Assembly: GCA_021781495.1 (NCBI GenBank)
Contig: JAJXWS010000006.1
Span: 1-61,076 of the forward strand
Direction: 5' to 3'
From: Acidobacteriota bacterium
GTDB lineage: Bacteria; Acidobacteriota; Terriglobia; Terriglobales; Acidobacteriaceae
DNA: 61,076 bases
This document shows, piece by piece, positions 27,273 to 31,069 of the stretch. A program made the position numbers and the translations under genes. Each line of letters begins with the position of its first letter. Position 1 is the stretch's first letter. Below the pieces are notes generated by a model that saw only the letters and a program-made list of their open reading frames with translations, was not told the DNA's origin and searched no databases.

Positions 27273-28028
27273 TTATCGGCTGGCGGCCTTTGGCGCGCGC
27301 GAATCCTCGTCCGAATCGCTCTGAATGATCTTGTTATGCAGGCAATAGAGCGCGAGCTCAAGCCGGTCTGAGACGCCGAGCTTGTCATAGATCTTGCGGA
27401 GATAGTTCTTGATGACCTGCTCGGTGGTTCCGAGTTGGAACGCGATCTCCTTGTTGCGCTTGCCCTGGGTAATGCAGGTAATGATGGCCATCTCCTTGGG
27501 CGAGAGACGGGGCTGGTTACGCGGGCTGACCAGCGCCGCTGCCTGGGAGCGATAGGCCTCAATCACCCAGTTGACGGACTGATTGTCAATCCAGGTTTCG
27601 CCGGCGCCGATACGGCGCACGCAGCGCACGAGCAGGTCCGGCGAGATGGAGCGGGAGATGATGCCGCGAACCCCGCGGCGATAGAGCTCGACAGTCTGGT
27701 TTTCGTCCGTGGCAACCGCCTGCACGATGAGCTTGACGTCTGGCGCCAGGCGCAGCAGCTCGGGAATGGCGTTGGCAGTTCCGGCAAGAAGACTGCCCTC
27801 GAGAATCACGATGTCCGTGGGATAGCGCTGAATGGCCGTGTGCAGGTTCTCAAGGGAGTCCGCCTGCGCAACAACGCGGATATCGTCTTCAAGCGCAAAA
27901 ATCTTGCGGATGCCGACACGATAAATGGCCTGGGAGTCCGCAAGGATCACACGGATTGCGCCAGGCTTTACCGGCCCTTCCTGGGCCTCGTCTTCATGAG
28001 AGTCATCTACGAATGCCATAGCCTGCAC
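27273..28028 (-). CDS. LuxR/NarL-type regulator with a degenerate receiver
   Basis: A 251-residue regulator: an N-terminal receiver-like domain (about residues 24-145) and a C-terminal LuxR helix-turn-helix (about 175-235, with LSPKEMAIITCITQGKRNKEIAFQLGTTEQVIKNYLRKIYDKLGV). The receiver has lost the usual phosphorylation chemistry: the acidic pocket is D31-S32, the phospho-acceptor position is Glu77 (in DIVILEGSL), the switch Ser/Thr position is Ala104, and the conserved Lys is Arg126. A Glu in place of Asp often mimics the phosphorylated state. No histidine kinase gene is adjacent. It sits 21 bp after the PilZ gene in one minus-strand unit. Confidence 0.85.
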   Translation of the reverse strand: MQAMAFVDDSHEDEAQEGPVKPGAIRVILADSQAIYRVGIRKIFALEDDIRVVAQADSLENLHTAIQRYPTDIVILEGSLLAGTANAIPELLRLAPDVKLIVQAVATDENQTVELYRRGVRGIISRSISPDLLVRCVRRIGAGETWIDNQSVNWVIEAYRSQAAALVSPRNQPRLSPKEMAIITCITQGKRNKEIAFQLGTTEQVIKNYLRKIYDKLGVSDRLELALYCLHNKIIQSDSDEDSRAPKAASR

Positions 28029-28049: not shown

Positions 28050-28412
28050 TCATTGCTCGGCGAATTGATACTCGTCGATGGTAACGGCAGCCTGATACAA
28101 ACCTTGACTTATGGAGCAGCGTACCACACGCCCGCGACAGTGAACCAGCACATCGCGAGTCGAACCAAAGACCGCCCCAGGCATGTGCAGCGAAAATCGG
28201 ATACCTTGTCCCACGGCCAATGACGACTCCAAATCAAAAAGCACGCCGTTGGCGGAGATGTTGCGCGTAACTGCGGTTTTCTGTCCCTCGTCCGTAAAAA
28301 TAACGACCGGCAGCGAGACAGGAAATCGCACGGCACTGCGAACTTCCTGCCGTCCATCCGGTGCAGGAGTTGGCTTGTTGTCGGGCGATTCACTCGTTTG
28401 CGGCGTGTCCAT
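28050..28412 (-). CDS. PilZ-domain protein, cyclic di-GMP-binding type
   Basis: A 120-residue stand-alone PilZ domain. Both c-di-GMP motifs are present: RxxxR as R25-SAV-R29, and the (D/N)xSxxG motif NISANG (51-56). Basic R25/R29 and a small residue before them match binding-competent PilZ. Residues 1-20 are a Pro/Thr-rich linker. Stand-alone PilZ proteins act as c-di-GMP adaptors for motility, exopolysaccharide or transcription. It lies upstream of, and probably in one operon with, the LuxR gene at 27273, so second messenger input could feed a transcription factor that no longer uses phosphorylation. The ATG at 28412 is chosen as the first start of this frame. Confidence 0.9.
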   Translation of the reverse strand: MDTPQTSESPDNKPTPAPDGRQEVRSAVRFPVSLPVVIFTDEGQKTAVTRNISANGVLFDLESSLAVGQGIRFSLHMPGAVFGSTRDVLVHCRGRVVRCSISQGLYQAAVTIDEYQFAEQ

Positions 28413-28974
28413 TCAGCACTTCCTGGTATTCGGAGTTCTCAAAGGCAACAAGGAACTCTGCAAGCAATGTAACGAATCTATGCACTTTCCTCCAGAAACG
28501 AAAGTTTAAACAGGATAACGAATCTGACACGGGCTGCCCTGCATCCGAAGCACCATGCCCTTCTTCAGTCCCGTCCGGTGAGAAAGCGCCGATTGGAAAG
28601 AAGATAGCAGATGTTTCCATCCGACTGCGACAGGCCTACGACTCCGGGGATGGTTCCTTCTCAGGATCAGGAAATCCCGGAATGGGTATCCAGCCCGCCC
28701 GATGCTCAACCCCTCGGTCACATCTAGAATTGCGCACGACACCGTTCTCTGCCAGCGAGCAGCCGAGGCTACGAGCTGTGATTCAGATCACCAGGCGGAC
28801 AACCTAAGACACACATTTCATGAATAGTTCGCCCGTGAATGCGAGATTTTGCAGGCGCGGAGACCCTGGTGAGAAATAAATTGGGAGGATAGTTACTTTT
28901 GTTGTAGCCGAAATAACACAATTGGGTTACTCTTTCCGTGCAAAGCTCATTTTGTTCCTCGGGAGAACGCGTAA
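28413..28974. other. 562-bp intergenic stretch
   Basis: Divergent control region between the PilZ gene (minus) and the repeat-protein gene (plus). The last 120 bp are AT-rich and end with a GGGAGAAC ribosome binding site for 28975. No gene, strong promoter pair or riboswitch could be identified. Confidence 0.45.
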
Positions 28975-29322
28975 ATGTTTTCGAATCCGCTGAAGTTTTC
29001 CGGTCTCTTTCTCGCTGCCACCTTGGTTACCGTTACTAGCTGCCTGGCCAGCTCGATTCCGATGAGCCCCTATCCGACCTCTGGTGGCGTGGTTGCATCC
29101 ATTCCCATGAGCCCCTATCCGACTTCCGGCGGCGTGGTTGCATCCATCCCGATGAGCCCCTACCCGACATCAGGTGGCGTGGTTGCGTCCATCCCCATGA
29201 GCCCCTATCCGACCTCTGGTGGCGTGGTTGCATCCATCCCCATGAGCCCCTACCCGACTTCCGGCGGCGTGGTTGCATCCATTCCGATGAGTCCCTATCC
29301 GACTTCTGGCGGGATCGTGTAA
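28975..29322 (+). CDS. Exported protein made of six perfect 15-residue repeats
   Basis: A 115-residue protein that I cannot assign to any family. The first 25 residues are a signal peptide (FSGLFLAATLVTVTSCLAS). Cys23 follows V-T-S, a permissible lipobox, so it may be a lipoprotein; otherwise signal peptidase I could cut near CLA-S. The rest is only repeats: SIPMSPYPTSGGVVA five times and SIPMSPYPTSGGIV once (from residue 27 to 115). Each unit has three Pro, one Met, one Tyr and a Gly-Gly. The DNA of the units differs only at silent sites (a single Val-to-Ile change in the last), so selection has held the protein. The ATG at 28975 has GGGAG 9 nt upstream. Possible roles: surface or cell-wall structural protein, or a secreted peptide precursor with several cores. 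Confidence 0.85.
   Translation: MFSNPLKFSGLFLAATLVTVTSCLASSIPMSPYPTSGGVVASIPMSPYPTSGGVVASIPMSPYPTSGGVVASIPMSPYPTSGGVVASIPMSPYPTSGGVVASIPMSPYPTSGGIV
29053..29319 (+). repeat. Six tandem 45-bp coding repeats
   Basis: Units at 29053-29097, 29098-29142, 29143-29187, 29188-29232, 29233-29277 and 29278-29319 (the last cut by the stop). They begin TCSATY in each case and code the same 15 residues. Variation is at third codon positions (for example CCG/CCC, TAT/TAC, TCT/TCC/TCA). No spacers or insertions occur between units. Confidence 0.95.
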
Positions 29323-29410: not shown

Positions 29411-30199
29411 ATGTCGATGATGAGTCTGGATAACGCGTTGTGGCTGGCGGGCAGTTTGACCGAAGCAACGCTCCTTGTGCTGTTCTTTACCAGACGAACA
29501 TGGCGCACGTTTCCGGTTTTGTGCATCTACATCGCAGCGGATCTGATTAGCAACGCGGCCAATTTCATCGTTCTAAGATCATTCAACCGCAACTACTTCT
29601 CCATCTACCTTGTGGAGACAGTGGTGGATTCAGTTCTGCAGTTCGGCGTTCTTGTTGAACTGACCTGGTCCGTGCTGCGCCCGCTTCGCCCTTCCGTTCC
29701 TCGTAGAACATTGGTTGCTATTGCGCTGGTGATTATCGGGTTGGGCATTGCCGGTTGGCCCGTCTCAGGACTGCACAGGCCTGCCCAGATTACGACCGGC
29801 GGCTACCTGCTGGCGCACCTGCAGCAGACATTTTCGATCTTGCGCGTTCTCATGTTTCTGCTGGTTGCCGCGTTCAGCCAGTTGCTCTCCATTGGCTGGC
29901 GAGACCGCGAGTTGCAGGTGGCCACCGGTCTTGGCTTTTACTCCCTGGTGAGCCTGGGTGCCGCCATGCTGCGGACGCATGTAACCACGGTTTTCCAGTA
30001 CAGCCATCTGAATGAGATCGTCGTGGCCAGCTATGTTTGCTCGCTGATTTACTGGGTGGTCTGCTTTGCCCAGAAAGAGGCGACGCGGCGAGAATTTACG
30101 CCGCAGATGGAGAGTTTTCTTCTGGCTATGGCGGGTTCTGCGCGCACGCAGCGCATCGCCCTTGCGGACTCGCAGCACTCCCGCAGAGGTAATCACTAA
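29411..30199 (+). CDS. Seven-helix membrane protein, unknown
   Basis: A 262-residue membrane protein with about seven hydrophobic segments (near residues 12-30, 38-58, 68-95, 102-122, 140-168, 178-196, 210-225) and a cytoplasmic-looking, basic C-terminus ending RTQRIALADSQHSRRGNH. I do not recognise the family; proteins of this type are recurrent in acidobacteria. It has no catalytic motif I can see. The ATG at 29411 is followed by ATGATG (29417-29422), so the exact start is open by up to 3 codons. It follows the repeat-protein gene by 88 bp and precedes another unknown gene, so a joint export or surface function is possible but not shown. Confidence 0.75.
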   Translation: MSMMSLDNALWLAGSLTEATLLVLFFTRRTWRTFPVLCIYIAADLISNAANFIVLRSFNRNYFSIYLVETVVDSVLQFGVLVELTWSVLRPLRPSVPRRTLVAIALVIIGLGIAGWPVSGLHRPAQITTGGYLLAHLQQTFSILRVLMFLLVAAFSQLLSIGWRDRELQVATGLGFYSLVSLGAAMLRTHVTTVFQYSHLNEIVVASYVCSLIYWVVCFAQKEATRREFTPQMESFLLAMAGSARTQRIALADSQHSRRGNH

Positions 30200-30550: not shown

Positions 30551-31069
30551 ATGATCTTTCCTTTGCTGCAAATTGCCGCCATAGCGGTTGTGGCTGTTTA
30601 CCTTGGTCGCTGGAGAGCAGGCGTACGCCGCCGCAACAACGAGACGTGGGGCACGCTGCTGTCCCGTTTGCGGCCAGACTGGAGCGCGCGCGATCTGAGC
30701 GGTCACTTCCTGTGGAAGGAAGGGATCGATACCACTCCGGAAGAGACGTGGTTGCGGATGCATGGCGCGCATGGGTTGTGGGCAATCTACCAGAATGCGC
30801 GGGTGATGCAGGAGATGGCCGACTATGCCGCTCGCAACAGTGAGTCGATTGACCGGGAACTCATTGAGACGCTGCACAGCGATGCGATGCAGATTCGTCT
30901 GTGCGTGCTGATGGCGCTGGCGCAGTACGCCTTCAGTCAAGCGAGCGAAGGTGTACGAGTGAATGCCTTCCGCGCCGCCTCAATGTATACGGGCATGGCG
31001 GCGCGCATGACGCGGCTGTTGCAGGAGAATGCGGCAGTTGTGGTGCCGGACTTTGTGGCTGCAATGTAA
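30551..31069 (+). CDS. Protein of unknown function with N-terminal membrane helix
   Basis: A 172-residue protein with one N-terminal membrane helix (residues 2-18, FPLLQIAAIAVVAVYLG) followed by an Arg-rich segment (RWRAGVRRRNNE) that would stay in the cytoplasm. The soluble part is mainly helical, with PDWSARDLSGHFLWKEGIDTTPEETWLRMHG and a long amphipathic region (DRELIETLHSDAMQIRLCVLMALAQYAF), suggesting a compact helical domain. I do not recognise it. It is followed by a strong terminator at 31090, so it is the last gene of its unit. Confidence 0.7.
   Translation: MIFPLLQIAAIAVVAVYLGRWRAGVRRRNNETWGTLLSRLRPDWSARDLSGHFLWKEGIDTTPEETWLRMHGAHGLWAIYQNARVMQEMADYAARNSESIDRELIETLHSDAMQIRLCVLMALAQYAFSQASEGVRVNAFRAASMYTGMAARMTRLLQENAAVVVPDFVAAM

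Follow-up and report, generated by a model that had tools for sequence, protein, structure and literature searches.

A hypervariable tandem-repeat peptide gene paired with a predicted seven-helix membrane protein in Acidobacteria

What kind of product is encoded by a gene that consists of a leader and six copies of the same 15 residues is the question raised by this locus. It lies in a window from a soil acidobacterium (the whole stretch of DNA analyzed, 61,076 bases) and is the sole tandem array identified there by TRF at a score of at least 50. Its features are the following:

28975..29322, + strand: array ORF, 115 aa, formed by a leader and six 15-residue units
28961..28966, + strand: likely ribosome-binding site GGGAGA, 8 nt before the ATG, judged from the sequence
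28975..29052, + strand: leader, predicted signal peptide MFSNPLKFSGLFLAATLVTVTSCLAS, by rule only
29053..29322, + strand: six units of 45 bp for SIPMSPYPTSGGVVA, the final one ending in GGIV plus stop

The leader presents a basic residue, a hydrophobic stretch and an A-x-A-like end, and was judged by rule. The first unit begins at 29053, and the unit comprises a core (IPMSPYP) and a linker (TSGGVVAS). Coordinates, frame and six-fold repeat had been given by an earlier sequence-only reading and were exact on re-checking. Its observation that the units all differ in DNA, almost only silently, was also confirmed: the six are distinct, and among units 1-5 every one of the 10 pairs differs at 2-7 silent positions and at no residue. 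Unit 6 carries a V to I change and is one residue short at its end. The silent codons of 29053-29322 match unit 1 with 4 (three differences) and unit 2 with 5 (two differences), the pattern that duplication of a block of three units would give. No clear second copy of the array was identified in its own genome, where three further matches had E values of 0.04-0.34.

A search of 60 genomes with the array (its own included) identified three further genomes of the same genus with clear kin (E <= 1e-10), and three weak matches (E 0.0016-0.0098). In the genomes with clear kin the gene next to the array, coding for a 262-aa membrane protein, is conserved too:

29411..30199, + strand: membrane protein predicted to have seven helices (7TM), the array's partner; AlphaFold2 model; adjoins arrays across the genus and in other genera

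Searched as protein, the window ORF yielded four candidates, none with E <= 1, and the array of Occallatibacter savannae yielded two kin, each with its own units; since the unit changes between genomes, sequence search is nearly blind to this family. Neither the array nor the 7TM reached a curated cut-off in Pfam or NCBIfam, nor did the 7TM alignment against PDB sequences, and a narrow search of the open-access literature found no comparable system for Acidobacteria or bacteria. The statement that no such family is known thus holds for the libraries searched, although a family does exist and was reached through the neighboring gene. An orphan or chance repeat was ruled out by its presence in relatives.

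The 7TM was identified in 65 of 80 genus genomes and in 38 of the 42 of good quality. From 75 7TM places listed in the genus 70 loci were fetched and their upstream DNA read: 47 contain complete exported ORFs, 10 an array cut by the contig end and 4 an array broken by N runs, whereas 4 have less than 215 nt upstream and 5 lack an exported-peptide ORF. Such an ORF is found beside the 7TM in 61 of 66 informative loci. Three of the five lacking it (L077, L078 and L080) are second 7TM copies in genomes whose other locus has the ORF, and L077, counted as lacking, has only 464 nt upstream. Contigs of seven loci (L156, L162, L166, L173, L175, L176 and L177) stop inside the array or just past its start; arrays are probably under-counted in draft genomes, as repeats break assemblies. 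When the GTDB species set was scanned with the 7TM alignment, 69 loci were recovered, every one under an Acidobacteria-type title; they include O. savannae AB23 and three named 'Terracidiphilus sp.'. Terracidiphilus gabretensis is reported to have been transferred to Occallatibacter (PMC12935467). Outside the genus, 20 of 40 7TM places were fetched, the best-scoring save one partial match, from 19 genomes and 11 genera. Arrays lie beside the 7TM in 15 of these, one short exported peptide in four (L189, L196, L199 and L200, three of them without the proline motif), and the last (L203) has a short exported ORF placed in neither group. Not every member of the family has the pair: the 7TM was identified in 36 of 150 genomes of the family and in 19 of 79 genera. 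Absence from every related genome, which the sequence-only reading had named as the outcome that would count against it, was not what was found: the locus is conserved and the unit changes between species.

The collection comprises 50 distinct complete ORFs, 46 with 2-19 units and four with a single one. Among the 46 arrays, 43 hold at least three units, the median is five and the largest is 19 (L068). Units span 12-24 residues across arrays, as in VPYGPLRLPPPSMAAA (L023), APIVPLPPVAAA (L036), GPMTPAPTPPGPTFA (19 copies in L068) and, in other genera, SPATPRPLPPPAVAFA (nine copies, L191) and GPGGGMPSPIGQTGLIAF (12 copies, L204). Cores span 5-15 residues across the family, with proline accounting for 49% of core residues. 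The one-unit members, of about 10-18 mature residues, are L043 (IPIIPMPPPLH), L050, L053 (SPIIPAPLPPVGHIADAV) and L055 in the genus and L189, L196, L199 and L200 in other genera. The last three belong to one genus, where the single exported peptides before the 7TM lack the proline motif: SPLQYLLDVWRLG, TEIWRWIMSL and SPLLYLLGVFKGIFY. The 57 loci having both 7TM and core contain 54 distinct cores; three locus pairs share a core, and in two of these the 7TMs are just 50-64% identical. In near relatives one or few core residues are changed in every copy together, as in IPMTPFP (two copies, L054) and IPMSPFP (eight copies, L058), whose 7TMs are 80% identical; these changes are read as concerted replacement. 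On these comparisons the window unit belongs to a large family that is hypervariable and sits at a single syntenic place.

Selection within arrays was compared between core and linker, the core being the proline span plus the preceding residue, set regardless of variation (by hand in L034). Over the 46 arrays the core has a pN of 0.0067 and a pS of 0.319 (ratio 0.021) and the linker a pN of 0.078 and a pS of 0.259 (ratio 0.302). The core is invariant in 38 of the 46, and linker pN is above core pN in 26 of 43 arrays, below in 3 and equal in 14 (sign test P 1.5e-5). Units were located by exact k-mers, a method that could miss variant cores; when the procedure was repeated with fuzzy matching, one copy was gained in one array (L040) and the core ratio rose from 0.020 to 0.021. 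Eleven arrays from other genera gave ratios of 0.046 for the core and 0.252 for the linker, out of 12 attempted (L201, whose core is variable by eye, was not located), with L186, L193 and L198 omitted as cut or gapped. Spacing varies within 9 of the 46 arrays. The sequence-only reading had taken the repeat for an old, drifted one whose protein is held by selection and had proposed comparing silent and replacement changes between units; the window pairs are silent only (units 1-5), and the claim is borne out and widened to the 46 arrays. A neutral or purely DNA-level repeat was ruled out by the almost silent-only drift of the core. Selection preserves the core and leaves the spacer free to drift, as expected of a multi-core precursor.

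The position of the cores points to how such a precursor may be cut. Before internal cores alanine is found at -3, -2 and -1 in 47, 46 and 50% of array-weighted boundaries; position +2 is proline by definition, and proline returns at +5 (78%) and +7 (89%). An A-x-A-like rule is satisfied at 146 of 219 internal boundaries and fails at 73, with all boundaries passing in 23 of the 46 arrays. Its mean fraction is 0.62 at the core register, the best of 17; the 16 shifted registers reach at most 0.47, the next ones 0.46-0.47. The signal before the cores is real but modest. Thirty of the 46 arrays have their first core within residues 21-29, and 28 of those (28 of 46 overall) show a signal-peptidase-like site 0 (20 arrays) or 1 (8 arrays) residue before it; in the other 16 a longer leader stretch separates the signal peptide from the first core. 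First and later cores often share their N-terminal context, given the A-x-A-like residues before both, and we infer cutting at these positions. A general lipoprotein nature was rejected, since a lipobox-like motif occurs in 3 of 46 array leaders only, the window's included.

Two guesses had been offered for the product, a structural surface protein and a secreted precursor with equal peptide cores. In its structural form the array would remain uncut, an extended chain rich in proline that is located in the periplasm, envelope or matrix and is placed or tethered with the help of the 7TM. Many members do have a mature part that is entirely repeat, long arrays occur (the 19 units of L068), the cores are half proline, and no processing enzyme was seen among the Pfam-scanned neighbors, where the sole protease-like match is to a distant esterase/S9-like hydrolase. 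This main rival is weakened by the one-unit members at the same locus; linker length and sequence vary freely whereas the core does not, unit length spans 12 to 24 and the core differs among near relatives. We regard a structural chain as unlikely. Of the two guesses the secreted precursor is favored and the structural protein less so, on account of the frozen core and drifting linker, the 28 of 46 first cores at a signal-peptidase-like site and the one-unit members.

The precursor gene lies in a conserved neighborhood, with the following features in the window:

27273..28028, - strand: LuxR/NarL-type regulator, divergent neighbor (Pfam GerE, E 3.2e-13; receiver domain under cut-off)
28050..28412, - strand: PilZ-domain protein, divergent neighbor (Pfam PF07238, E 2.6e-11)
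28894..28932, + strand: promoter-like element, conserved, TACTTTTGTNGTAG-N14-TTGGGTTASTC, derived by eye from an alignment of upstream regions
30551..31069, + strand: 172-aa protein, possible third gene of the unit, downstream on the same strand, without Pfam match

Neighbors were counted in 28 loci that extend about 4 kb to either side: the LuxR-type regulator and PilZ were each identified in 26, MarR in 24, and the aldo-keto reductase and the 172-aa protein each in 22, so that the array locus is an old chromosomal place. The LuxR/NarL-type neighbor is, as a guess, a candidate regulator of the array gene. Receiver domains usually carry Asp as phospho-acceptor; by motif reading the window regulator has Glu at that position, and the ...LEG motif is also found in 32 of 36 copies of this neighboring gene, so the protein may act without phosphorylation. 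No RiPP modifying enzyme or dedicated peptide exporter was identified by Pfam among 14 neighboring ORFs (20.7-36.0 kb).

The promoter-like element, at up to three mismatches, has one site in its own genome and within the order is present in 40 of 65 genus genomes (absent at this threshold in 25), 1 of 332 others and none for a reversed control. Only G023 has two sites, and it also has two loci. All five genus loci without an exported ORF also lack the element (best 11 mismatches, against 0-9 at other loci), and 29 of 30 fetched sites precede an exported-peptide ORF. As the motif was drawn from such regions, its independent evidence is its uniqueness, its absence elsewhere and the new contig-end arrays it located (G084 and G087). 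At some of the loci considered (the window at 28894-28932, L019, L139 and L140) it resembles an inverted repeat, GGTAGC..GCTACC in L019 and TACC..TACCACTTTTGG in L139, and this looks like what would fit binding of a dimeric regulator.

The 7TM was modeled by AlphaFold2 (17 sequences, pLDDT 79.1, pTM 0.73) as seven helices plus a C-terminal helix. Loops assigned inside contain 0.207 K+R per residue versus 0.032 outside (69 sequences), from which an N-out/C-in orientation is predicted; the seven-helix arrangement of GPCR-like proteins is thus found here as a prediction. Mean conservation is 0.69 in inner versus 0.50 in outer helix halves, and 0.73 in inner versus 0.34 in outer loops (P 6e-14, with sites taken as independent), the exception being helix 4, which shows the reverse. 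Fold matches were GPCRs and rhodopsins, none significant, and no kinase or other signaling domain was found with Pfam and NCBIfam. In some genomes a second, diverged paralogue immediately follows the first (L005, 1-408, - strand; L012, 2-547, - strand). The array/7TM pairing across genera would also be accounted for if the 7TM were instead an enzyme for cutting, anchoring or exporting the repeat product, and helix 5 does contain a nearly invariant arginine, R145. Most invariant residues, however, lie toward the predicted cytoplasmic side, away from an exported substrate, and Pfam, NCBIfam and further profile and sequence libraries gave no enzyme family match; such a role in place of a receptor is very unlikely.

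In one comparison (n=35) the 7TM has a mean protein distance of 0.53, the LuxR-type regulator 0.18 and PilZ 0.38; in another (n=24) the values are 0.55 for the 7TM, 0.33 for the 172-aa protein and 0.23 for the aldo-keto reductase. Core distance follows 7TM distance with neighbors controlled (five settings, partial r 0.22-0.32, P 0.0005-0.0105), a correlation that is suggestive only, as a fast linked gene is also a better clock. A small exported variable peptide beside a fast-evolving membrane protein could also be a competition peptide, cut free to inhibit related strains, with the 7TM shielding the producer; the single non-proline hydrophobic peptides of one genus (L196, L199 and L200) go in the same direction. 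Bacteriocin genes are usually patchy in distribution, whereas this place is constant in 26 of 28 loci and the 7TM nearly so in the good genus genomes (38 of 42). The conserved face of the 7TM is the inner one, and PADLOC gave no match at curated cut-off for the array, the 7TM or the 172-aa protein. A peptide with its immunity protein is therefore improbable. Four features fit an exported ligand in 1-19 copies better than a structural chain: the one-unit products, the frozen core, the drift of the spacer, and a 7TM whose outer side varies while its inner side is conserved.

Several known systems share part of this arrangement. Bacterial multi-core RiPP precursors, like the array, are single precursors in which spacers alternate with several equal cores; the array differs in its signal-peptide-like leader, and the modifying enzyme expected nearby was not among the 14 ORFs already mentioned. 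The AIP and ComX pheromone systems of Gram-positive bacteria combine a hypervariable short peptide with a membrane partner variable outside and conserved inside, a pattern repeated here. The differences are that one gene copy yields many units, that the 7TM was found without a signaling domain and that the phylum is Gram-negative. According to PMC6339444, fungal alpha-pheromone precursors have 1-16 copies (mean 5) of peptides of 9-24 residues, and their repeats frequently vary among themselves. Measured against that account, the copies here are 1-19 (median 5) of 12-24 residues, and the likeness extends to KEX2-processed repeat proteins (KEPs): a secretory leader, a tandem short unmodified peptide and a 7TM partner (Ste2). 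The leader, by rule, and the minimum of three repeats of KEPs are found in the window (six units) and in 43 of 46 arrays. The dibasic site (KR, RR, KK or RK), however, is present in none of 220 internal units, so the array is not a member of the alpha-factor/KEP class. It also differs in its bacterial host, in the adjacent partner gene and in a core nearly invariant within the array. PDB sequences and a fold search showed neither a sequence relation nor a significant fold relation between the 7TM and Ste2-type receptors. By analogy, the array would work most like a fungal alpha-pheromone precursor. Each known kind that could be tested fails a defining feature, and the function given here is a proposal from sequence.

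The explanation we favor, with a chance somewhat short of even, is that the array gene codes for an exported multi-copy precursor of a short proline-rich peptide, cut at its linkers to give a species-specific signal sensed by the 7TM. In the window the product would be exported, as its rule-judged leader suggests, with six copies of one peptide, and be cut apart at the alanine-rich linkers, as the A-x-A-like residues before the cores indicate. The freed peptide would be read by the 7TM encoded next door, a receptor role suggested by its conserved inside, its variable outside and its pairing with arrays in several genera. The number of copies would determine the dose, a single unit being sufficient in some species, and the neighboring LuxR-type protein may exert control, which is a guess. 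Against a signal, a peptide of 12-24 residues would have to cross the outer membrane. The broader idea that Acidobacteria have an alpha-factor-like language, with a private peptide per species, a GPCR-shaped receptor adjoining, and peptide and receptor outer face co-diverging, is less likely than not. If the favored explanation is right, a peptide and 7TM pair would be readable directly from genomes across a family of soil bacteria, dozens of unit peptides would be open to synthesis and assay, and the system would be a convergent bacterial counterpart of the fungal multi-copy pheromone precursor. If the product is structural or competitive instead, it would still be a clean natural case of a core frozen within a genome and swapped between species.
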